A stretch of DNA of 64,000 bases from Gemmatimonadaceae bacterium. GTDB taxonomy: Bacteria; Gemmatimonadota; Gemmatimonadetes; Gemmatimonadales; Gemmatimonadaceae. The notes below the pieces were generated by a model. That model was not told the origin of the DNA. It saw nothing but the letters and a program-made list of their open reading frames with translations, and made no database searches. Positions within the stretch are counted from its first letter, which is position 1, and every line of letters begins with the position of its first letter. Of this stretch, positions 12,619 through 23,827 are shown in pieces. The position numbers and the translations under genes are program-made. The DNA lies in NCBI GenBank assembly GCA_020851035.1, contig JADZDM010000028.1, positions 1-64,000 of the forward strand. The letters run 5' to 3'.

Positions 12619-14475
12619 TCAGCGACCGGCCATCGACTCCGGACGCAGCACGTCGTCGAGTTGCTCACGCGTGAGCCAGCCGCGCTCGAGCACGATCTCG
12701 GTCACGCCGCGCCCCGTCGCGAGTGCCTCCTTCGCGACGTCGGTGGCCTTCTCGTAGCCGATCACCGGCAGCAGCGCGGTCACCACGCCGATCGAGTGCT
12801 CCACGTAGTACCGCATCCGGTCTGCATTCGCCGTGATACCTGAGATGCACCTGGACTCGAGCACCTGGATCGCGTTCGTCAGCTCCTTGATGCCACCGAG
12901 CAGCCGGTAGGCGATGATCGGCTCGAACACGTTGAGCTGGAGCTGCCCCGCCTCGGCCGCCATCGTGATCGTGACGTCGCCACCGATGATGTCGAAGCAG
13001 ACCTGGTTGACCACCTCGGGGATCACCGGGTTCACCTTGCCCGGCATGATGCTGCTGCCCGGCTGCACCGGCGGCAGGTTGATCTCGCCGAAGCCGGCGC
13101 GTGGCCCCGACGAGAGCAGCCGCAGGTCGTTGCAGATCTTCGACAGCTTGGTGGCGGTGCGCTTGAGCACGCCGCTCAGCTGCACGAAGGCACCGGTGTC
13201 ACTGGTGGCCTCGATCAGGTCCGGCGCGGTGATCATCACCAGCCCCGTCACCTCCGAGAGGTGGCGCCGCACCGAGGTGGTGAACGACTCCGACGCCGTG
13301 ATGCCGGTCCCGATCGCGGTGGCGCCCATGTTCATCTCGCGCATCAGCGCCTGCGCCTCGGCGAGCCGGTCCACGTCCTCCATCAGCGTGTGGGCCCACG
13401 CCCGGAACTCGCGGCCGAGCGTCATCGGCACCGCGTCCTGCAGCTGCGTGCGGCCCATCTTGATGAGCGACGCGAACTCGACACCCTTCACGTCCATCGC
13501 CCCGCACAGCGACCGCAACGCGTCCCGCAGGCCGTCGAGCGCGGTGTGCAGCGCGATGCGGATGGACGTCGGATAGACGTCGTTGGTGCTCTGGCTGCGG
13601 TTCACGTGCTCGTTGGGGTGCACCACGTCATAGCTGCCGCGCGACCGCCCGAGGATCTCGAGCGCGCGATTCGCGATGACCTCGTTGGCGTTCATGTTGG
13701 TGCTCGTCCCGGCCCCGCCCTGGATCATGTCCACGATGAAGTGCTCGTGGTGCCGGCCCGCCCGCAGCTCCTCGCCGGCCCTGATGATCGCCTCGGCGAT
13801 GTGGTCGGGCAGCAGCCCGAGCTCGTGGTTGGCACGCGCGGCGGCGATCTTCACGCAGGCCAGTCCGGCGATCAGCTCGGGAACCTCGCGCAGCGGCACA
13901 CCGGTGATGGGAAAGTTCTCGGCGGCGCGCAGTGTCTGCACACCGTAGAGCGCCTCATCGGGCACCTCCCGATCGCCGAGCAGGTCGTGCTCGGTGCGCA
14001 TGCGCCGGCTGCCGAACCCCAGCGCGCGGCCGCGGCCCACCAGCGTCGCGTCGGCCACCCGCAGCCGCTGGGCGATCGCCCGCGCGGCGCGGGCCACCAG
14101 GCCGGCATAGAGGTGGGGATTGTCCTTCACCACCTCGGCCAGCTTCTCCTTGCGCAGGATCAGCAGCTCGCCGGCGATGACGGCACGGGCGGTGGTGCCA
14201 TGGCGGGTGTCATCGAGCAGCATGCCCTCGCCGATCGCCTCGCCGGGACCCATGGTCACCAGGCGCACCGTGCGCCCCTCGGCGGTCTTCTCGATGGTCA
14301 CGCCGCCGGTCACCACCAGCGCGAACATCGAGCGCTCCTCACCTTCGCGGAAGAACACGTCTTCGGTGGCGAAGGAGTGCGGCTCGACGGCGTGTGCCAG
14401 GCGCCAGAGCTGTGCGTCAGGAAGACCCTGCACGAACGGCAGCGCCTTCAGCTGTTTGAGAATCGCGTTTTTCAT
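12619..14475 (-). CDS. aspA: Aspartate ammonia-lyase with N-terminal cyclic-nucleotide-binding domain
   Basis: A 618-residue fusion. Residues about 14-125 form a CRP-type cyclic-nucleotide-binding domain, with a phosphate-binding cassette GEAIGEGMLLDD followed by the ligand-type Arg91. Residues about 155-618 are a complete aspartase of the fumarase/aspartase superfamily: TEHDLLGD entry, GAGTSTNMNANEV (255-267), NRSQSTNDVYPT (292-303) and the signature GSSIMPGKVNP (473-483). It should convert L-aspartate to fumarate and ammonia, with activity probably tuned by a bound nucleotide. Canonical aspartase is about 470 residues and lacks the first domain. It lies 52 nt after the Mur-ligase-like gene, with a -10 box (TAGCTT, 6 nt from ATG) of its own, so it may be transcribed both ways. 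Confidence 0.92.
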   Translation of the reverse strand: MKNAILKQLKALPFVQGLPDAQLWRLAHAVEPHSFATEDVFFREGEERSMFALVVTGGVTIEKTAEGRTVRLVTMGPGEAIGEGMLLDDTRHGTTARAVIAGELLILRKEKLAEVVKDNPHLYAGLVARAARAIAQRLRVADATLVGRGRALGFGSRRMRTEHDLLGDREVPDEALYGVQTLRAAENFPITGVPLREVPELIAGLACVKIAAARANHELGLLPDHIAEAIIRAGEELRAGRHHEHFIVDMIQGGAGTSTNMNANEVIANRALEILGRSRGSYDVVHPNEHVNRSQSTNDVYPTSIRIALHTALDGLRDALRSLCGAMDVKGVEFASLIKMGRTQLQDAVPMTLGREFRAWAHTLMEDVDRLAEAQALMREMNMGATAIGTGITASESFTTSVRRHLSEVTGLVMITAPDLIEATSDTGAFVQLSGVLKRTATKLSKICNDLRLLSSGPRAGFGEINLPPVQPGSSIMPGKVNPVIPEVVNQVCFDIIGGDVTITMAAEAGQLQLNVFEPIIAYRLLGGIKELTNAIQVLESRCISGITANADRMRYYVEHSIGVVTALLPVIGYEKATDVAKEALATGRGVTEIVLERGWLTREQLDDVLRPESMAGR

Positions 14476-14481
14476 GGGCCC

Positions 14482-14487
14482 AAGCTA
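14482..14487 (-). promoter_or_regulatory. aspA: -10 box 6 nt before the aspartase start (leaderless)
   Basis: TAGCTT, then GGGCCC, then ATG on the minus strand. It gives the aspartase gene its own predicted start site despite lying within the cph gene run. Confidence 0.5.
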
Positions 14488-14527
14488 TGCGCGTGCATGT
14501 GCGCCGGGCAGCAGCCGGAACCGCGAT

Positions 14528-16237
14528 TCAGCCGGCCCCGCCAGCGGTCCACGCAGGCACCGGGTCGCCGGCCTGCCAGCCGATCCGTGCCAGTTCTGCA
14601 AGGAAAGCGAGCACGGCGTCCCGGTCGGCGTGCACGGCGAGCAGGATGACATCACCCGCCTGCGCCCACTGCACGGCGAGGCGGGCAGCGGCAACGTCAT
14701 CCGCGGCCGCGGCACACTGCCCGTCGGGCACGCCCAGACCGTGCAACGCGGCGAGCAGCACGCCGCTGATCGACCCCGGCTCGCGCCCGCGCAGGAACCG
14801 CGGCATCTCCTTCGCGATGTAGAGGTCGATCACGCCGGCGCGCACGGCTGCCGCGGCGATGTCGTGCAGTGCCTCGTCGTCACGGTCGCCGCCGGTGGCG
14901 AGGGTGATGGCACGACGATGGCCCGCCAGGTGCCGCGTGGCGTCGATCAGGGCCGCCACGCCCTGCGGATTGTGGGCGTAGTCCACCACGACGGTCACGC
15001 CGCCGATGGTCTGGACCATGAGCCGCCCCATGTTGTCCGCCGGGTCGGCACCGAAGACCAGCAGCGCGCGCTGCGCGGCGGGAGGCAGTGCCAGTTCGCC
15101 GGCGACAGCGAGGGCGATGCGTGCGTTGAGCAGGTTGTGCGATGCGGCACCGCCGAGGGTGGCCGGGATGGCGCGCAACTCCTCCGCGGTGAGGGCCGCA
15201 GAGCCATCGGCGTGCACGAGATGCGTGCGGCCGGCGTACCCGGCGATCGCGTCCCGCAAGGCAGGCACGTCGCCGTTGACGACCAGCACCCCGGTCTCCT
15301 CCACCGCGCGCGTCACGACGAGCTTCGCCGCGGCCAGTGCGGCGAGGTCGGTGATGCCGTAGTCGCCGAAGTGGTCGGGCGAGAGCGTCACCACCGCCGC
15401 CACGGCAGCACGCTGCACGGCGAGCCCACGCCGCAGCATGCCCCCACGGGCAGACTCCAGCACGGCCAGTGTCACACGCGGGTCCTGCAGCACGCGCCGC
15501 GCACCGGCGGGACCGGACCAGTCGCCGCGCTCCACCCGCGCCCCGTCGATCCAGACACCGTCGGTGCAGGTGTGGCCGACCACATGCCCCGCGGCCCGTG
15601 CCATGGCCGCCACCATCCGCACGACGGTGGTCTTGCCGTTGGACCCGGTGACGAGGACGATCGGGATGTCGCGGATCGCGACCCAATCCACCTCGGAGAC
15701 CTTGGGCAGCAGCGTCAGTGGCCATCCGGTCGCGCCCGCACCGGTGCCGACGAAGAGCGCGGCATCGTCGAAGGTGACGTTCAGGCCCAGCCGCTGTCCC
15801 TCGTTCCAGAGCGCGCGGAGTCGAGGCGACGCCTCGCTGTCGCTGGCGGCACGCAGGGCCGGCAGCGCCGTGTCCGGGCCGGCGGCACTGGCACCGCGGA
15901 CGACCGCCTCGGCGGAGACCCACGCCGTCTCGCACACCTCGGTGGCGGTCATGAGCTGGTCGATCGGCGCGTGGACGAACAGGCTCGCGCCGCCGGGATA
16001 GCGCCGGACCGCCGTCTCTGCGTCAGGCCAGCCGAGTGCGGCGGCGAGTCCGGCCGCCTGCCGCTCCCACGCCTCCACCAGCGCCACCGCGTCCGTGTCG
16101 TGGTCGTCCAGCATCACGTCGAGCACGGCACCCAGGCCCGGGTGCATGAGGTTCGGACCCATCAGCCGGCGCGAGTCGACGATGGCCGGGGAGGGGTACC
16201 CCGACACGAGGTCCGGATCGCGCGGTGGGCGCGTCAT
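14528..16237 (-). CDS. Cyanophycin-synthetase-like Mur ligase lacking the ATP-grasp domain
   Basis: 569 residues. Residues about 19-165 look like a degenerate CphA N-domain: RRLMGPNLMHPGLGAVLDV resembles the CphA opening, but the HxxEH site of CphA is absent and the matching stretch reads TATEVCETAW. The ATP-grasp domain is missing. From about 190 a Mur-ligase module follows, with the ATP loop VTGSNGKTT (196-204), a LESARGG motif, an LSPDHFGDYG segment and DYAHNPQG. In CphA the ATP-grasp half adds Asp and the Mur half adds Arg to the Asp side chain, so this enzyme should catalyse only a Mur-type amide bond on an existing acceptor. It starts 30 nt after the cphA stop. The substrate is unknown; similar genes occur beside cphA elsewhere, to my recollection. 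Confidence 0.75.
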   Translation of the reverse strand: MTRPPRDPDLVSGYPSPAIVDSRRLMGPNLMHPGLGAVLDVMLDDHDTDAVALVEAWERQAAGLAAALGWPDAETAVRRYPGGASLFVHAPIDQLMTATEVCETAWVSAEAVVRGASAAGPDTALPALRAASDSEASPRLRALWNEGQRLGLNVTFDDAALFVGTGAGATGWPLTLLPKVSEVDWVAIRDIPIVLVTGSNGKTTVVRMVAAMARAAGHVVGHTCTDGVWIDGARVERGDWSGPAGARRVLQDPRVTLAVLESARGGMLRRGLAVQRAAVAAVVTLSPDHFGDYGITDLAALAAAKLVVTRAVEETGVLVVNGDVPALRDAIAGYAGRTHLVHADGSAALTAEELRAIPATLGGAASHNLLNARIALAVAGELALPPAAQRALLVFGADPADNMGRLMVQTIGGVTVVVDYAHNPQGVAALIDATRHLAGHRRAITLATGGDRDDEALHDIAAAAVRAGVIDLYIAKEMPRFLRGREPGSISGVLLAALHGLGVPDGQCAAAADDVAAARLAVQWAQAGDVILLAVHADRDAVLAFLAELARIGWQAGDPVPAWTAGGAG

Positions 16238-16267
16238 GCGTGCGCAGTCTGGTCGGTCGCGGTCGGC

Positions 16268-19177
16268 TCAGTCGTTGGCTTCGCGGGCAAGGTACACACC
16301 ACGATCATCGCGGATGATGGTGGTGCCGGCTTCCTCGGTGTCGCGATGCGTCGAGACCGGCAGCTTGTCGCGCAGCGAGCCGGGGATGGCATAGGTGTCC
16401 GTGATCTGGCGCACGGGCGCGTCGGCCGCAGGCGGCGCGGCGGGCAGGTCGTCATCGGCCAGTTCGACCACGTCCGGCGCGATCGTCTGCGGCACCTGGC
16501 GCTTCGGCGAGACGAGAGATGCCCGGTCGAAGTCCGGCTTGAACTGCGTGATCTGCTTCCAGCCGCGTGCGAGCGCATCGGCGAAGATGAGCACCAGGTC
16601 ACCCGGCTGCGCGTGCCGCAGCGCGGTATCGATCGCCGCCTGCTCGTCGACGATGACCTCCACCCGGTCCTGGCTGATGCCATGCGAGAGCAGGGTGGCC
16701 TCCAGCATGCGCGGCACCTCGTCGTCGCCACGGCCGCGGCGGCTGTCATCGCGGCGGCAGATGTAGTGGTCGAAGAGGCCGGCGGCGGCCACGTCACCGA
16801 TGGCGGCGATATCCTGGTCGCGACGGTCACCGGGGGCGGCGAGCACGCAGATGCGGCGCCCCTTCACGTCGAGCCGATTGGCGAGCTGGCAGAGCTGCTC
16901 GATGGCGTCGGCGTTGTGGCCGTAGTCGAAGAGCACGCGGAACGGATGCTGGTCGTACACGTTCAACCGGCCCGGCGCCTGGAAGAAGCTGGTGTCGAAG
17001 GTGCGCAGGCCGTGGCGGATGTCCTCGAGGCGCACGCCCATCGCGAACGCCATCGCCGCGGCGAACATCGCGTTCTGCACGTTGTGCAGCGCCTTGCCCT
17101 CGATGGTCGCCGGGATGAGGTGCGTCCAGAGCAGCGGGATGTGTGCGCCGTGGTCGTAGATGGTGATCATCGACCCGTTGATCCCGTTCTCGAGCGCAAT
17201 GGCGCGGCCGCCGGCGCGAATGTGCTCGCGCACCAGCTCGTGGTCCGGGTTCAGCGTCACATAGCAGACGTGCTTCGCGTCGGTGTAGGCCGCCATCCGC
17301 AGCGTGTGCGGATCGTCGGCATTCAGCACCGCCGTGTCGCGCGCGATCTCCACCACCGTGCGCTTGATCTCGGCCAGCTGCTCGAGGGTGTCGATGTTCT
17401 TCTGGCCGAGGTGGTCGGGGCGCACGTTGAGCACCGCGCCGACGTCCACGTAGCGGGTGGCCATGCCGGCACGCAGCAGGCCGCCGCGTGCGGTTTCGAG
17501 GACGGCCACGTCCACCATCGGGTCGCTGAGCACGATGCGCGCGGCGGTGGGGCCGGTCATGTCGCCGACGACGGTGCGCTGGCCATCGATGTAGACGCCG
17601 TCGGTGGTGGTGAGGCCCACCCGCTTGCCCGAGAGCTTGTGGATGTGCGCCAGCATGCGCGACGTGGTGGTCTTGCCGTTGGTGCCGGTGATGGCCGCGA
17701 TGGGGATCGTGACCGGGGCGCCCGCGGGGAAGAGCATGTCGATGGTCTTGCCAGCCACGTCACGCGGACGCCCGTCGCTGGGCGCCATGTGCATGCGGAA
17801 GCCCGGGGCGGCGTTGATCTCGCAGATCGCGCCGCCGATTTCCTTGTAGCTCTGCGTGATGTCGGGGGTGAGGAAGTCCACACCCCCGATGTCGAGCCCG
17901 ATCGCCTTGATCGCCCGCACCGCCATCTCGGCGTTGTCGGGGTGCACCAGGTCGGTCATGTCGCGCGCGGTGCCGCCGGTGCTGAGGTTGGCGGTGAGGC
18001 GCAGATAGACCACCTCGTCGACGGACGGGATCGTCAGCGGCGTGTAGCCAAGCTTGTCGAGCAGGCCCATCGCCTGCTCATCGAGCTCGATGCGGGTGAG
18101 CACCTTCTCGTGGCCGATACCGCGGCGCGGGTCGGCGTTCACGTTCGCGACCAGCTGCTCGATGGTGTGTACGCCATCTCCGATGACGTGACCGGGCTCG
18201 CGCTTCGATACCGCGACCAGCTCACCGTCGATCACCACCATGCGGTGATCGTGGCCGGTGATGAACGTCTCGACGATCACGCTGCGCGAGTGTTCCTGCG
18301 CCCGCGCGAAGGCCTCGTGGATCTCGGCGTTGGTGCTGAGGTTGATCGAGACACCGCGTCCATGGTTGCCGTTGTACGGCTTGAGCACCACCGGGCGCCC
18401 GATGCGATCTGCCGCACTGACCGCGCGCTCGGCCGTCTGTACCAGCCGCTGCTTCGGCACCGGCAAACCGAGGTTGGCGAGGATCTTGTTCGTCTCCTCC
18501 TTGTCGCCGGCCAGCTCGACGGCGATGTGCGACGTGCGCCCGGTGACGGTGGCCTGGATGCGCTGCTGGTGCACGCCGTAGCCGAGCTGGATCAGCGACT
18601 GCTCGTTGAGCCGGATCCACGGGATGCCGCGCTTCTCTGCGGCGTGCACGATGCTGGCGGTGCTGGGGCCGAGGGCGCGGCGCTGGGCGTAGCGGATGAA
18701 CGTGTCGCGGCGGGATTCCCAGTCGAAACTCGGGTCGAAGTCGTCGGGGCGCAGCTCGGGCGGCAGCATGGAGTGCAGCAGGTCGAGCGACAGGTCGGCG
18801 GCCTCGATGCCCACGTCCTCCTGCTCGTACTCGAACGCCACGTCGTAGACACCCTCGCGGCCGGCGCTGCGCGTCTTGCCGAACGTCACGGCGATGCCGG
18901 CGGTGTTCTGCATCTCCAGCACCACGTGCTCGAACACGTGACCGAGCCAGGTGCCTTCATCCTCGGTCATGCGGCGGATGAATCCACCCGGTTCGCCGTA
19001 GCTGCAGCCGTGCTCCCTCAGGCCGGGCAGGCGCTCGATGAGCGTGTCGATGAAACCGCGTCCCAGTCGCATCGTCGGCCAGGCTTCGAGTGCACCGAGG
19101 TCCACTTCCAGCCGGATGACCGGGAAGTGTGCGTAGTGACTGGGCCCGACGTAGACGTTGCGATCGAGGATCTTCAT
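16268..19177 (-). CDS. cphA: Cyanophycin synthetase
   Basis: A 969-residue enzyme that polymerises Asp and Arg, using ATP, into the nitrogen reserve cyanophycin. The N-domain (1 to about 160) carries HVFEH (80-84), the HxxEH metal site reported to cut cyanophycin into primers in cyanobacterial CphA. The ATP-grasp domain (about 161-485) includes KEETNKIL, VVLKPYNGNHGRGV (263-276) and GGVDF, and adds Asp. The Mur-ligase domain (about 490-880) has ITGTNGKTTTSRM (496-508), ETARGG and DYGHN, and adds Arg. About 80 Pro/Asp-rich residues at the C-terminus exceed the usual length of roughly 870-900. Its ATG overlaps the cphB stop by 4 nt (ATGA), so the two are translationally coupled. Confidence 0.97.
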   Translation of the reverse strand: MKILDRNVYVGPSHYAHFPVIRLEVDLGALEAWPTMRLGRGFIDTLIERLPGLREHGCSYGEPGGFIRRMTEDEGTWLGHVFEHVVLEMQNTAGIAVTFGKTRSAGREGVYDVAFEYEQEDVGIEAADLSLDLLHSMLPPELRPDDFDPSFDWESRRDTFIRYAQRRALGPSTASIVHAAEKRGIPWIRLNEQSLIQLGYGVHQQRIQATVTGRTSHIAVELAGDKEETNKILANLGLPVPKQRLVQTAERAVSAADRIGRPVVLKPYNGNHGRGVSINLSTNAEIHEAFARAQEHSRSVIVETFITGHDHRMVVIDGELVAVSKREPGHVIGDGVHTIEQLVANVNADPRRGIGHEKVLTRIELDEQAMGLLDKLGYTPLTIPSVDEVVYLRLTANLSTGGTARDMTDLVHPDNAEMAVRAIKAIGLDIGGVDFLTPDITQSYKEIGGAICEINAAPGFRMHMAPSDGRPRDVAGKTIDMLFPAGAPVTIPIAAITGTNGKTTTSRMLAHIHKLSGKRVGLTTTDGVYIDGQRTVVGDMTGPTAARIVLSDPMVDVAVLETARGGLLRAGMATRYVDVGAVLNVRPDHLGQKNIDTLEQLAEIKRTVVEIARDTAVLNADDPHTLRMAAYTDAKHVCYVTLNPDHELVREHIRAGGRAIALENGINGSMITIYDHGAHIPLLWTHLIPATIEGKALHNVQNAMFAAAMAFAMGVRLEDIRHGLRTFDTSFFQAPGRLNVYDQHPFRVLFDYGHNADAIEQLCQLANRLDVKGRRICVLAAPGDRRDQDIAAIGDVAAAGLFDHYICRRDDSRRGRGDDEVPRMLEATLLSHGISQDRVEVIVDEQAAIDTALRHAQPGDLVLIFADALARGWKQITQFKPDFDRASLVSPKRQVPQTIAPDVVELADDDLPAAPPAADAPVRQITDTYAIPGSLRDKLPVSTHRDTEEAGTTIIRDDRGVYLAREAND

Positions 19178-20004
19178 TCAGGCAGGCCAGAGTGCTGGAG
19201 GGTGACCACGTTGCTGCCGTGGGCCTTGCGGGTGCGCATGTCGTAGCCGGCGCCCTGCGTGAGCAGGTGCATGCGCAGGCCGATCATCGTGATGGGATCG
19301 TACTTCCCGGCCAGCCACATGGACGTGAACTCGGTTTTCGAGGTGTCGATGACGGTGACGGCGCTGGTGCCCATGACGTCGATCTCGTCGTCGGGGCTGA
19401 TGAAGGCCGCCGTGTCCTCGTCCACGCCGAGTCCGAGGAAGCCCGGGTGGGAGGAGAGGGCGGTGAGCAGGCGGCCGAGTCGGTCGCGCTGGCGGAAGTG
19501 CTGGTCGATGATGATGTCGTTGGTGAGGCCGAAGCCCGGTACCAGCGTGACGATGCCGGCGCGAGGTGTCGGCCCTTCCTCGCCGCCGCCGATCATGTGC
19601 TCCGACATCACCGCGGCACCGGCGCTGGTGCCGGCCACCGGCATGCCGGCGGCGAAGCGTGCGCGCAGCAGGCGGGAGGCGGGGGTGCCGCCCATGATGT
19701 TGGTGAGACGGAGCTGGTTGCCGCCGGTGATGAAGACGCCGTCGCAGTCTTCCAGCTCGCCGAGCCAGTCGCGATCGTCGCAGTCGCTGCGGCGCTGGAA
19801 GTTCAGGGCGCGGGCGTATTTCACGCCCATCTTCCGGAACTGCTTCTCGTACCATTCACCCATGTCCGCCTCTTCGGAGGCGGTGGGGATGATGGCGATG
19901 ACCGGGTTGCGGCCGCAGATGCCGATGAACCGGTCGAGGATGGCGGCGTCGGTGAGCTTGCCGCCGATGGGGATGAGCCAGCCTTTGCTGTGGGTGGTCG
20001 TCAT
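19174..20004 (-). CDS. cphB: Cyanophycinase (S51 family serine exopeptidase)
   Basis: A 276-residue cytosolic peptidase that releases beta-Asp-Arg dipeptides from cyanophycin. The nucleophile elbow is GTSAGA (125-130, Ser127), preceded by the oxyanion-type FITGGNQLRL segment (91-100) and followed by the LVPGFGLTNDIIIDQHF region with the likely His. Length and motif spacing match CphB rather than peptidase E. It is the first gene of the cphB-cphA run, and its stop overlaps the cphA start. A TACCTT box 5 nt before ATG predicts a leaderless message. It is divergent from iadA over 212 nt that hold no other gene. Confidence 0.96.
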   Translation of the reverse strand: MTTTHSKGWLIPIGGKLTDAAILDRFIGICGRNPVIAIIPTASEEADMGEWYEKQFRKMGVKYARALNFQRRSDCDDRDWLGELEDCDGVFITGGNQLRLTNIMGGTPASRLLRARFAAGMPVAGTSAGAAVMSEHMIGGGEEGPTPRAGIVTLVPGFGLTNDIIIDQHFRQRDRLGRLLTALSSHPGFLGLGVDEDTAAFISPDDEIDVMGTSAVTVIDTSKTEFTSMWLAGKYDPITMIGLRMHLLTQGAGYDMRTRKAHGSNVVTLQHSGLPE

Positions 20005-20009
20005 GCCGG

Positions 20010-20015
20010 AAGGTA
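20010..20015 (-). promoter_or_regulatory. cphB: -10 box 5 nt before cphB (leaderless)
   Basis: On the minus strand TACCTT is followed by CCGGC and then the cphB ATG. It would drive cphB-cphA and probably the Mur-ligase-like gene. No good -35 is visible. Confidence 0.5.
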
Positions 20016-20204
20016 CCGCCGGCCTTGGATCCGGGCAGGGTTCGCGCGGGGCGGCGGCCGGCTCCGGGGGGCGGGGTCGTCACCAGTCCTCACGCGGAGA
20101 GGCGGAGGAGCGGAGGGTTCCGTGAGCGGTGAAGGCAGGTGCGGGCGGCGGGGTGAGGGCGCTGAATCGGGGGGCGGGAGTTGGTTTGCTGGCGCGGGGG
20201 GCGG

Positions 20205-20210
20205 TAGCGT
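20205..20210 (+). promoter_or_regulatory. iadA: -10 box 6 nt before iadA (leaderless)
   Basis: TAGCGT, then tggcgg, then ATG 20217. A TTGGTT at 20181-20186 lies 18 nt upstream as a possible -35. Confidence 0.4.
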
Positions 20211-20216
20211 TGGCGG

Positions 20217-21350
20217 ATGACTATCGAACAGAGCGAGGCCGGGGGGATGCGGCTGGTGCTGAACGCGGATGTATATGCGCCAGAACACCTTGGGCATCGG
20301 CACATCCTGACGGGGGGTGGGCGGATCCTGTGGATGGGGACGGACCGGCCGTCGTTTCCGGGCTACCTCGGGGTGGAGGAGGTGGACCTGGCGGGGCGGC
20401 AGGTGATCCCGGGGTTGATCGACGGGCATTGCCACGTGACCGGAGGCGGCGGCGAGGCGGGGCCGGCCTCGAAGGTCCCCGCTCCCTTGGCTGAGTCGTA
20501 CCGGAAGGCGGGAGTGACGACGGTGGTGGGGGTGCTGGGGACCGATGATGTCACGCGGTCCACGGCGGAGCTGATCGCGGGGGTGCGTGCGCTGCGAGCG
20601 CAGGGGATCAACGCGTGGTGTCACACGGGCGGGTATCACCTGCCGCTGACGACGCTCACGGGGTCGGTGCGGTCGGACATCGTGAACATCGATTGTGTGA
20701 TCGGGGTGGGTGAGGTCGCGATTTCAGATCACCGGTCATCGCAGCCGACGCTGGATGAGCTGCTGCGGATCGCGGCGGACGCGCACGTGGCGGGGTTGAT
20801 GACAGGCAAGGCGGGGATCCTGCACCTGCACGTGGGTGATGGGCCGCGGGGCCTCGAGTTGATTCGTGAGGCGTTGCGGGTGTCGGAGATTCCGGCGCGG
20901 GTGTTCAATCCGACGCACGTGAACCGGCGGAAGGGGTTGCTGCACGAGGCGATTGCGCTCGTGAAAGAGCATGGGTGTTACATCGACATCACGGACTTTC
21001 CGGTGGCCGATGGTGAAGACGCCTATTCGGCTGCCGACGCGCTCGAGGTGTATTGGGAGTCGGGGGCGCCGCTCGACCGCGTCACTGTTTCGTCGGATGG
21101 TGGGGGGTGTTTGCCTGTCTTTGGGCCGGATGGGCAGGTGGTGTCGTACGACGTTGGGGATTGCTCGGCGTTGATGGGGACGGTGCGGACGTTGGTTGGG
21201 CGGGGGCATGCGCTGGAGCAGGTGCTGCCGGCGTTCACGCAGAATGCGGCGGTGCTGCTGCGGATGCGTGATGTTGGCGAACTCGCGCTGGGACATCGCG
21301 ACGACGCCGTGTTGTTCGGCGCCGGCCCGACTTCGATCACGCGTGACTGA
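20217..21350 (+). CDS. iadA: Isoaspartyl dipeptidase
   Basis: A 377-residue amidohydrolase that splits beta-Asp dipeptides, here most likely the beta-Asp-Arg made by cyanophycinase. Binuclear metal motifs are visible: GLIDGHCH (66-73), the bridging-ligand segment GVGEVAISDHRS (163-174), LHVGDG, NPTHVNR and SSDGGG. In E. coli IadA the bridge is a carboxylated Lys162; the aligned residue here appears to be Glu166. Two starts are possible: ATG 20217 with a -10 box 6 nt upstream, or ATG 20247, which has a GAGG 8 nt before it and gives the usual N-terminus. It is divergent from cphB and completes the degradation pathway. Confidence 0.92.
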   Translation: MTIEQSEAGGMRLVLNADVYAPEHLGHRHILTGGGRILWMGTDRPSFPGYLGVEEVDLAGRQVIPGLIDGHCHVTGGGGEAGPASKVPAPLAESYRKAGVTTVVGVLGTDDVTRSTAELIAGVRALRAQGINAWCHTGGYHLPLTTLTGSVRSDIVNIDCVIGVGEVAISDHRSSQPTLDELLRIAADAHVAGLMTGKAGILHLHVGDGPRGLELIREALRVSEIPARVFNPTHVNRRKGLLHEAIALVKEHGCYIDITDFPVADGEDAYSAADALEVYWESGAPLDRVTVSSDGGGCLPVFGPDGQVVSYDVGDCSALMGTVRTLVGRGHALEQVLPAFTQNAAVLLRMRDVGELALGHRDDAVLFGAGPTSITRD

Positions 21351-21371: not shown

Positions 21372-23024
21372 TCAGCCTGCTTGCAGCGTGGAATCCACGA
21401 TCGCGCGCGCCGCGGCCACGACATCGGCAGGATACCCTACCCTCTCGAGCAGCGCGATGGCATTGCGCGTGCTGCCGAGCCCCGGCCGGATACGGTAGTC
21501 GAACACCAAGCCGTCAACACCGACTTCCTCCCGGAAGTTGAACACTGAAAAGCGATCGCCGAGCAAGCCGATCAGCTCAGTGTCGTGGGTCGTGACGACG
21601 ACAAGATCGTCGCCACGATTCAAGGCGTGCAGCACAGCTGATGCGGCGGCCACACGTTCCACCGTGTTCGTGCCGCGGTAGATCTCGTCTAGCAGGAACA
21701 GGTGCGCGTGGCCGCTTTCCTTGGCCTGGAGGAGTTGCAGGATCGACTCGACTTCGGCCATGTAGTAGCTCCTCCCATCGAGCACGCTGTCCTCGCGGCC
21801 GATGGAGGTGCAGACGCGCAAGCTCGGCGACCGCCACGACTCCGCGCAGACGGTGGCGAGGGTCTGGCCGAGCAGGGCGTTCACGCCGAGCGCCCGGGCG
21901 AACGTCGTCTTGCCGGACATGTTGCTGCCGGTGATCAGGGCGCCACGCTGGTGCAGCGTGAAGGCGTTTGCGACAGGATCAGCGAGGAGCGGGTGAACGA
22001 TCGCCTGGACGTCGAGTGCCTTTGCGTCGCCCGTGAGGTCCGGCACGCACCACGACTGCCGAGTCGTACGCCAGTGCGCGATCGACTGCGCCATGTCGAT
22101 CGCGCCGATCGCCTCCCACAACGCACGCGTCAGTGTCCGGTGACGCTGCAATGCACCAACGGAGAACACGAACGCGTTGGCGTCGAACAGGAAGAGCAGG
22201 TTGAGGTACGCGTAGAGCATCGAGGCGAGTTCATTTGCTGGCCCTGGCTCGAACATCAGCCACCGGGTCGCGGTCCGCAGGCCGGACAACGTGCGAGCCC
22301 CCTCGCGCAGCGTCCGCGTGGCGGCCTCGCTCTCTGGGAGCTCGAGGTCGCCGAGTTCGGAAGCGACAGTCACGAAGGCCGGGAGTTCGTGGACGGCGGA
22401 GAGGAACGAAGCGACTCGTGCCTTCCAGAACGCCTGCACACACATGTTGGCGGCGCACACGGCGAGCCACAGCACCAGCGCCTGTGGCCAGACCGCAATG
22501 AGGGCCATGCTTGCGAGGGCGGATGCCGACAGGATCGGGAAGAGCCACCAGAAGGCAGGACGATCCGGGACATCGCCCATGAGGAGGGGCGCGAGGTATG
22601 CCGCCCGCGTGTCGTGCAGGCGACGGAGTGACGACCGAACCCGGTTCGTGAGCCGCGCGTCCTTGGCGAACTGCGCGGCCACGCGGTCGAGACTTTCGAC
22701 GTCCGGCGCGGTCTCGCAGGGCCGGTGGAGTGCGTCATACAGGTACTGGCGCCCGATCTCGCTTTCGGTGTGGTCGACGAGACCGAACACGCTGTCCATG
22801 TCGAGGTCCGCCCATGTCTTGTCACTCACGGACGGCCGCCTGGGCAGGGCATGCTCGCGGTGGTAGCTGCCGATCAGGTGCAGGTCGCCATGCCGGGAGG
22901 TACGATCGTGGTCGAGCGCGCGCTGGAGCGACAGGCCACTGCGGATTGACGCGAGCAATCGCGGGAGCAACAGGCCCGCGGCACCGACCGCGAGCGCCGT
23001 GAGGATCATCGAGACAGGTCGCAT
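21372..23024 (-). CDS. Membrane-anchored MutS-like ATPase
   Basis: 550 residues. The C-terminal third is a MutS-family ABC ATPase: Walker A GSNMSGKT (366-373), signature/D-loop region around SVLDGRSYYMAEV, Walker B LFLLDE (442-447) and a VVVTTHD switch His. The mismatch-recognition and connector domains of MutS are absent. Instead there is an N-terminal hydrophobic segment (about 4-25) and a double membrane segment (about 157-200), then a helical clamp-like region. Membrane-tethered MutS relatives are widespread but their role is unclear; mismatch repair is unlikely. ATG 23024 has a TATTGT box 5 nt upstream. It is convergent with iadA, 21 nt apart. Confidence 0.8.
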   Translation of the reverse strand: MRPVSMILTALAVGAAGLLLPRLLASIRSGLSLQRALDHDRTSRHGDLHLIGSYHREHALPRRPSVSDKTWADLDMDSVFGLVDHTESEIGRQYLYDALHRPCETAPDVESLDRVAAQFAKDARLTNRVRSSLRRLHDTRAAYLAPLLMGDVPDRPAFWWLFPILSASALASMALIAVWPQALVLWLAVCAANMCVQAFWKARVASFLSAVHELPAFVTVASELGDLELPESEAATRTLREGARTLSGLRTATRWLMFEPGPANELASMLYAYLNLLFLFDANAFVFSVGALQRHRTLTRALWEAIGAIDMAQSIAHWRTTRQSWCVPDLTGDAKALDVQAIVHPLLADPVANAFTLHQRGALITGSNMSGKTTFARALGVNALLGQTLATVCAESWRSPSLRVCTSIGREDSVLDGRSYYMAEVESILQLLQAKESGHAHLFLLDEIYRGTNTVERVAAASAVLHALNRGDDLVVVTTHDTELIGLLGDRFSVFNFREEVGVDGLVFDYRIRPGLGSTRNAIALLERVGYPADVVAAARAIVDSTLQAG

Positions 23025-23029
23025 TTCGC

Positions 23030-23035
23030 ACAATA
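23030..23035 (-). promoter_or_regulatory. -10 box 5 nt before the MutS-like gene (leaderless)
   Basis: TATTGT, GCGAA, ATG on the minus strand. It favours ATG 23024 over the TTG at 23033. Confidence 0.45.
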
Positions 23036-23091: not shown

Positions 23092-23445
23092 TCAGCGCCC
23101 GTCCAACCCGAGTACCAGGCGCAGGCCGCGCGCCACGTGCTGCATCACCGCGCGCGGCAGCTGCCCGGCCTGCTCGGTGAGGACGATCCGGTCGATCGTG
23201 ACGAGCTGACTGACATTCGCGACCGAATCGCGCGGCAGGCCACTGGCCTTCGCCGGGATGAGCACATTCCCCGGTGCATCGAGCAGTCGCATCGACGTGG
23301 TGAGGGCAACCACGATCACCGTGGCGACCCGACTGCGATTGAACGCGTCCGCCTGCACGATCAACACCGGTCGCCGGAACCCGGGCTCGGCCCCATCAGG
23401 CTCCGGCAGTTCCGCCCACCATACTTCCCCGCGCATCACGTCCAT
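23092..23445 (-). CDS. MazF/PemK-type mRNA endonuclease toxin
   Basis: A 117-residue protein of the PemK/MazF fold. It opens with the family hallmark RGEVWWAEL, then the catalytic-type RRPVLIVQAD strand pair, a TVIVVALTT core and an LPRDSVANVSQLVTIDR segment carrying the conserved Ser/Thr and Gln. Members cleave mRNA at short sequences when not bound by antitoxin. Its ATG at 23445 overlaps the antitoxin stop by 10 nt, so the pair is translationally coupled. It is complete in length with no visible damage. Confidence 0.92.
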   Translation of the reverse strand: MDVMRGEVWWAELPEPDGAEPGFRRPVLIVQADAFNRSRVATVIVVALTTSMRLLDAPGNVLIPAKASGLPRDSVANVSQLVTIDRIVLTEQAGQLPRAVMQHVARGLRLVLGLDGR

Positions 23446-23672
23446 TCGGATCGTCGCAATGCGGTGCGTGCCGCCGCCTGCACACCCGCGTCGTGCGGCG
23501 GCGGATCGGCATAGACCCGATTGAGTGCGTCGGTCACGTCCGAGTCGCGGTGCTTGGCGAGATACTCCGCGAGCGCGGTCGCATACAGCTGCGATCGGGA
23601 CATGCCGATCGCAGTCGCGAGCCGGTCGGCCTCGTCGAACAAGGCATCCGGGAGTGAGATGGCAGTCTTCAT
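23436..23672 (-). CDS. Ribbon-helix-helix antitoxin (MazE-type partner)
   Basis: 78 residues. The N-terminal MKTAISLPDALFDEADR strand-helix and MSRSQLYATALAEYL helix form a ribbon-helix-helix DNA-binding fold (about 1-45); the acidic, Pro-rich tail should wrap the toxin. It starts at ATG 23672. The frame is open to 23747, but the palindromic operator and -10 box lie right at this ATG. It is expected to repress its own operon through the 23-bp palindrome at 23671-23693. Confidence 0.9.
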   Translation of the reverse strand: MKTAISLPDALFDEADRLATAIGMSRSQLYATALAEYLAKHRDSDVTDALNRVYADPPPHDAGVQAAARTALRRSEWT

Positions 23673-23693
23673 ACCGGAGTATAACCCCGGTAT
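23671..23693 (-). promoter_or_regulatory. Palindromic operator/promoter of the toxin-antitoxin pair
   Basis: The arms ATACCGG (23671-23677) and CCGGTAT (23687-23693) are perfect, and flanking inner bases also match, giving a nearly complete 23-bp palindrome. On the minus strand it contains TATACT (23678-23683), whose last base is 5 nt before ATG. Repressor, polymerase and start codon therefore share one site, and the mRNA should be leaderless. Confidence 0.65.
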
Positions 23694-23827
23694 GCCGAGA
23701 AGGGCCTGCGACAGACGGCGGCGGATAAGTCGGGCTGGTCGGGGCATACGGAAAGGTGTGCCGCTGCGGTGTCCCCTCGGTAACCGGAAACGCGCGCCGC
23801 GAAGCCTTCCACCGCCTCCGGAATCAC

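Follow-up and report, generated by a model that had tools for sequence, protein, structure and literature searches.

Two types of cyanophycin synthetase, CphA1 and CphA2, have already been described (PMC10206079). The cphA1 gene clusters with cyanophycinase in 81% of the genomes having both, and with iadA in 16% (PMC10206079). CphA2 is a CphA relative in which one synthetic active site is left (PMC10206079). It repolymerises dipeptides and has been described from cyanobacteria. The site that CphA2 retains is the backbone site, in the ATP-grasp (G) domain. In Betaproteobacteria, a shortened second CphA gene lies directly beside cphA; we take this truncated tandem protein to be the one that is often called CphA'. 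Tandem CphA-like genes of this kind were seen just upstream of cphA in betaproteobacterial loci L100, L104–L107, L110–L112 and others.

The window, which is the whole 64,000-nucleotide stretch of Gemmatimonadaceae DNA that was analysed, contains a cyanophycin locus in which a gene encoding a further CphA relative, here called Mur2, follows cphA. A sequence-only reading had proposed that five genes at this locus could together run nitrogen storage and release, with synthesis and breakdown at one place. All five are present as open reading frames, and their families were assigned by Pfam and NCBIfam:

12619–14475, minus strand: fusion of a CRP-like domain (residues ~33–118) with an aspartate ammonia-lyase (P0001), 618 aa
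14528–16237, minus strand: Mur2 (P0002), derived from a CphA, with N and M parts and no ATP-grasp core, 569 aa
15671–16237, minus strand: Mur2 residues 1–189, a degenerate CphA N domain and the start of the G domain, from collinear HMM and structure matches
14528–15670, minus strand: Mur2 residues 190–569, a Mur-ligase M domain whose catalytic residues are conserved
16268–19177, minus strand: CphA1-type cyanophycin synthetase (P0003), N-G-M, retaining the active-site residues of each of its three sites, 969 aa
19174–20004, minus strand: CphB cyanophycinase (S51; P0004), 276 aa
20217–21350, plus strand: IadA-like isoaspartyl dipeptidase (P0005), divergent, 377 aa

The cphB, cphA, Mur2 and aspartase genes form a tight cluster on the minus strand, with iadA on the opposite strand. 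Measured on the open reading frames, the overlap of cphB with cphA is 4 bases, the gaps from cphA to Mur2 and from Mur2 to the aspartase are 30 and 52 bases, and the divergent iadA is 212 bases off. A scan for promoters and terminators gave nothing beyond chance level. P0003 matches the NCBIfam cyanophycin synthetase at 1127.9 bits (cut-off 850) and P0004 the cyanophycinase family at 233.5 (cut-off 126.6); the IadA-like match of P0005 is slightly below its cut-off (327.8, cut-off 331.25). These family matches and the recurrence of the gene order in other genomes bear out the proposed set for synthesis and breakdown at one place. With the residues of all of its active sites kept, CphA P0003 should be able to make cyanophycin on its own.

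Pfam identifies only Mur_ligase_M and Mur_ligase_C in Mur2, and ATP-grasp is absent. These are generic domains, the middle and C-terminal domains shared with MurE and the other Mur ligases, and would be compatible with a peptidoglycan-type Mur ligase that lies beside cphA by chance. The best NCBIfam match of Mur2 is, however, cyanophycin synthetase, at 266.6 bits versus 74.6 for MurE, and its closest solved structures by sequence are those of CphA1. The N region has no Pfam match, and the Pfam Cyanophycin_syn family is matched by none of 19 Mur2 proteins, therefore the origin of this region rests on HMM and structure matches. The N region, G-domain start and M domain of Mur2 have collinear HMM matches in several independent CphAs, with a best E of 1.8e-4. 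Profile-profile comparison gives a weak agreement of the N region with CphA, in the same register.

An AlphaFold2 model of Mur2 built with CphA sequences has a mean pLDDT of 91.6, and a model from Mur2 sequences only, at 83.9, has nearly the same secondary structure. Against CphA1 the first of these gives Z 37.3 over 378 residues (rmsd 2.8) and the second Z 34.4 over 380 residues (rmsd 3.2), while the values against MurE are lower, at 24.7 and 21.6. Both models match CphA1 from the first residue through the M core, and CphA1 entries with a resolved lid are matched over ~520 residues. The structure match spans Mur2 residues 17–552. Both the N fold and the collinear arrangement of N region, G start and M domain that mark descent within the CphA superfamily are therefore found in Mur2, which appears to be a CphA that lost the ATP-grasp core, approximately residues 210–485 of P0003. 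Judged by its sequence, Mur2 is a CphA descendant in which the M ligase has been retained and the functions of G (backbone extension) and N (primer-making) have been lost. The NCBIfam scores, the N region and structure, the M-domain tree and the genomic context, with Mur2 paired with CphA in 42 of 42 genomes, all place Mur2 with the CphAs; the peptidoglycan ligase was rejected on this basis and is extremely improbable.

Mur2 resembles CphA1 (PDB 7lg5, 7lgn, 7wae) in its N and M domains, its M-domain catalytic residues and its fold (Z up to 37). It differs in having neither the ATP-grasp core nor the N-domain Zn site, in its changed lid residues and in its length of 569 rather than ~900 aa. The active ATP-grasp that polymerises beta-Asp-Arg in CphA2 (PDB 7ta5, 8fxh) has no counterpart in Mur2, where the ATP-grasp core is absent and only the side-chain (M) site is kept. 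Mur2 is the mirror image of CphA2. The truncated CphA of the Betaproteobacteria is likewise encoded beside cphA, but there the match runs through N and G into part of M (P0003 ~10–730), so that the protein is cut short at the opposite end. The suggestion that the ATP-grasp-less paralogue stands outside the known set is upheld, as it is syntenic with cphA and is neither of the two known synthetase types. No account of an ATP-grasp-less CphA partner was found in the open-access papers searched.

Nine M-domain catalytic positions are identical in 38 of 38 aligned Mur2 proteins (in P0003 numbering, the P-loop K502 and T503, E561, D588, H589, K605, R737, H754 and N755). Structural papers assign catalytic roles to the P-loop Lys and Thr, the Mg-binding Glu and the DH pair (PMC9427784, PMC9262961). 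Together these residues characterise a CphA1-type M domain. The roles of K605, R737, H754 and N755 are taken from conservation among Mur ligases. The other two sites have gone. No Cys and no HxxEH is aligned in any of the 38 Mur2 with the N-domain Zn site Cx19HxxEH, a site that is not universal among CphA1, and the alignment columns of the backbone-extending ATP-grasp core are empty in nearly all of them. In the partner CphAs the residues of all three sites are kept in 38 of 38, including the Cys and HxxEH of the N domain.

A pseudo-enzyme would not be expected to keep nine catalytic positions unchanged in all 38 proteins. A mainly structural or regulatory role for Mur2, as a subunit that joins CphA tetramers and in which ligation is secondary or absent, is therefore unlikely, although the retained N-M body plan of CphA, the co-variation with the partner and the pairing with CphA in every full-length case seen would agree with such a subunit. 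The paralogue that accompanies the other CphA type in the phylum, by comparison, did lose its P-loop lysine. Lid residues R786, D789, D810 and D867, which are conserved in most CphAs, are replaced in Mur2, and H536 is invariant in it. Given the replaced lid residues, and others that only Mur2 holds invariant, Mur2 probably recognises another amino acid or acceptor than the M domain of CphA does.

The distribution of Mur2 was determined in 298 genomes of the phylum, probably Gemmatimonadota to judge by named hits such as L101 and L154. It is present in 42 of the 42 genomes with a partner-type CphA (63–100% identity, with fragments at contig ends excluded from the count) and in 0 of the 24 that have only the other CphA type (40–46% identity), an association with a Fisher p of 1.6e-18 when shared ancestry is left uncorrected. 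The order cphB-cphA-Mur2 is found in more than 30 genomes, and the cluster is therefore not a chance arrangement. Wherever the examined stretch has both genes, Mur2 lies directly after cphA. Nearly all Mur2 loci examined have cphB upstream of cphA, and many have iadA nearby; any further gene family recurs in at most 8 of 38 loci. The same cphB-cphA-Mur2 order is also found in an Acidobacteriota MAG (OFTM223), Defluviimonas sp. WL0050, Lysobacter sp. Root916 and Plesiocystis pacifica. Acidobacteria MAG LB_ACB_1 has cphA-Mur2 and iadA, with no cphB match in the examined stretch. For the CphAs that branch just beyond the partner clade (L141, G210), the examined stretch lacks Mur2, so the cphA-Mur2 pairing probably arose after that split.

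The other CphA type in the phylum has its own short paralogue of ~350 aa, located between cphA and cphB (L065 7430–8572, minus strand; L070 10255–11322, plus strand; L072 10360–11469, plus strand; and others in L065–L072). This has a CphA N domain with the Cys and HxxEH intact in 7 of 7, and an M-core-like part without the P-loop lysine. From these residues, a role as a free-standing endo-cyanophycinase that makes primers is conceivable.

In a quick M-domain tree with a Mur-ligase outgroup, Mur2 forms one clade within the CphA radiation (support 100), and the seven outgroup rows split from Mur2 and CphA together with the same support. The deeper forks that nest Mur2 inside the CphA tree have SH-aLRT values of only 87–94. 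A recent copying of the neighbouring CphA was considered and rejected, as the Mur2 clade is apart from the partner CphA clade and is not its sister. Across 37 loci, the distances of Mur2 follow those of CphA (Mantel r 0.62, p 0.0001). Mur2 is under purifying selection, with a dN/dS of 0.15–0.40 versus 0.08–0.18 for CphA, and it evolves faster than CphA.

This faster rate could indicate a decaying duplicate that is carried by linkage, as could a single frame-broken copy in genome G185 (L174 6392–7811, minus strand), where Mur2 is split over two frames, iadA is ~3 kb away and cphA was undetected. However, the dN/dS of Mur2 is far under 1, its catalytic residues do not vary and it is conserved over several phyla, so decay is very improbable. 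The one broken copy occurs where cphA is missing; this fits a dependence of Mur2 on cphA, with a sequencing error in the MAG being possible. Mur2 is a real, conserved CphA-derived partner protein, apparently undescribed. The evidence for its presence and anatomy is good, and its reaction we infer.

The favoured reading, with a probability of about one half, is that of a locus for the synthesis, breakdown and recycling of cyanophycin, with Mur2 as an in-trans ligase beside CphA. Mur2 most likely joins an amino acid to Asp side chains of cyanophycin. As an ATP-dependent ligase acting in trans with CphA, it would phosphorylate the beta-carboxylate of an Asp that terminates a cyanophycin chain or short intermediate, and would then couple the amino acid to the phosphorylated Asp. 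CphB would free dipeptides and IadA would cleave them, and in the genus of the window the aspartase would convert aspartate to fumarate and ammonia. Against the in-trans ligase stand the faster evolution of Mur2, the SH-aLRT of only 87–94 at the deeper forks and the consideration that a CphA with an intact M domain has no obvious need of a second ligase. It is conceivable, if doubtful, that Mur2 adds an amino acid other than arginine, or uses another acceptor, in which case a two-protein synthetase would make a hitherto unknown form of cyanophycin with mixed side chains.

The first steps of CphA1 have been proposed to be very slow, with starters rate-limiting (PMC9262961). Mur2 retains only the type of ligase that couples arginine to aspartate, and might on these grounds be a starter enzyme that supplies beta-Asp-Arg or (beta-Asp-Arg)-Asp type starters for extension by CphA. 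However, the partner CphA keeps the N-domain residues for making starters by cleavage in 38 of 38, and it is the lid of the arginine-adding domain that is altered in Mur2, which makes such an enzyme quite improbable. As an in-trans ligase, Mur2 would complete the set beside CphA1, with both synthetic sites, and CphA2, with the backbone site alone, being widespread, strictly coupled to cphA and equipped with the side-chain site only. It would be a natural tool for separating the side-chain from the backbone reaction. If its choice of amino acid differs, natural polymer diversity is greater than assumed, with a use in designed biopolymers.

The aspartase P0001 has an N-terminal CRP/cNMP domain (PF00027, residues 33–118). 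Its lyase half matches aspartate ammonia-lyase at 726 bits against a cut-off of 510, with the TIGR00839 score slightly below its cut-off, and the lyase signature GSSxMPxKxN is present as GSSIMPGKVN. This fusion is widespread in the family and adjoins the cph genes in 3 of 3 genomes of the window's genus. Outside the genus it lies away from them (~140 kb off in G004; on other contigs in G102 and G202), and it also occurs in four genomes without a cphA match (G019, G024, G025, G031). An aspartase dedicated to cyanophycin was therefore rejected as a general claim. Of the synteny that the sequence-only reading had named as a check, the cphB-cphA-Mur2 part is conserved and the aspartase part is confined to the genus, so that the cNMP-aspartase does not stand as a general part of a cyanophycin variant.

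The phosphate-binding Arg of the GE...RS/TA motif is absent from the fused aspartases, with HG there in 9 of the 9 aligned; the CRP register is presumed to place this arginine at the HG position of P0001. Cyclic-nucleotide control of the aspartase should therefore not be assumed, because His-Gly replaces the CRP phosphate-binding arginine. No description of an aspartase with a cyclic-nucleotide-binding domain was found in the open-access papers searched. Residues 5–133 of P0001 also match the CRP-like domain of family 2B encapsulin shells, at 41.7 bits, which is below the cut-off.

Beyond the locus, at 23092–23747 of the window, lies a PemK/MazF-like toxin gene with, upstream of it, a ribbon-helix-helix antitoxin-like gene whose match is below the cut-off. 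Adjoining iadA is a 553 aa MutS-domain-V protein (21372–23033).
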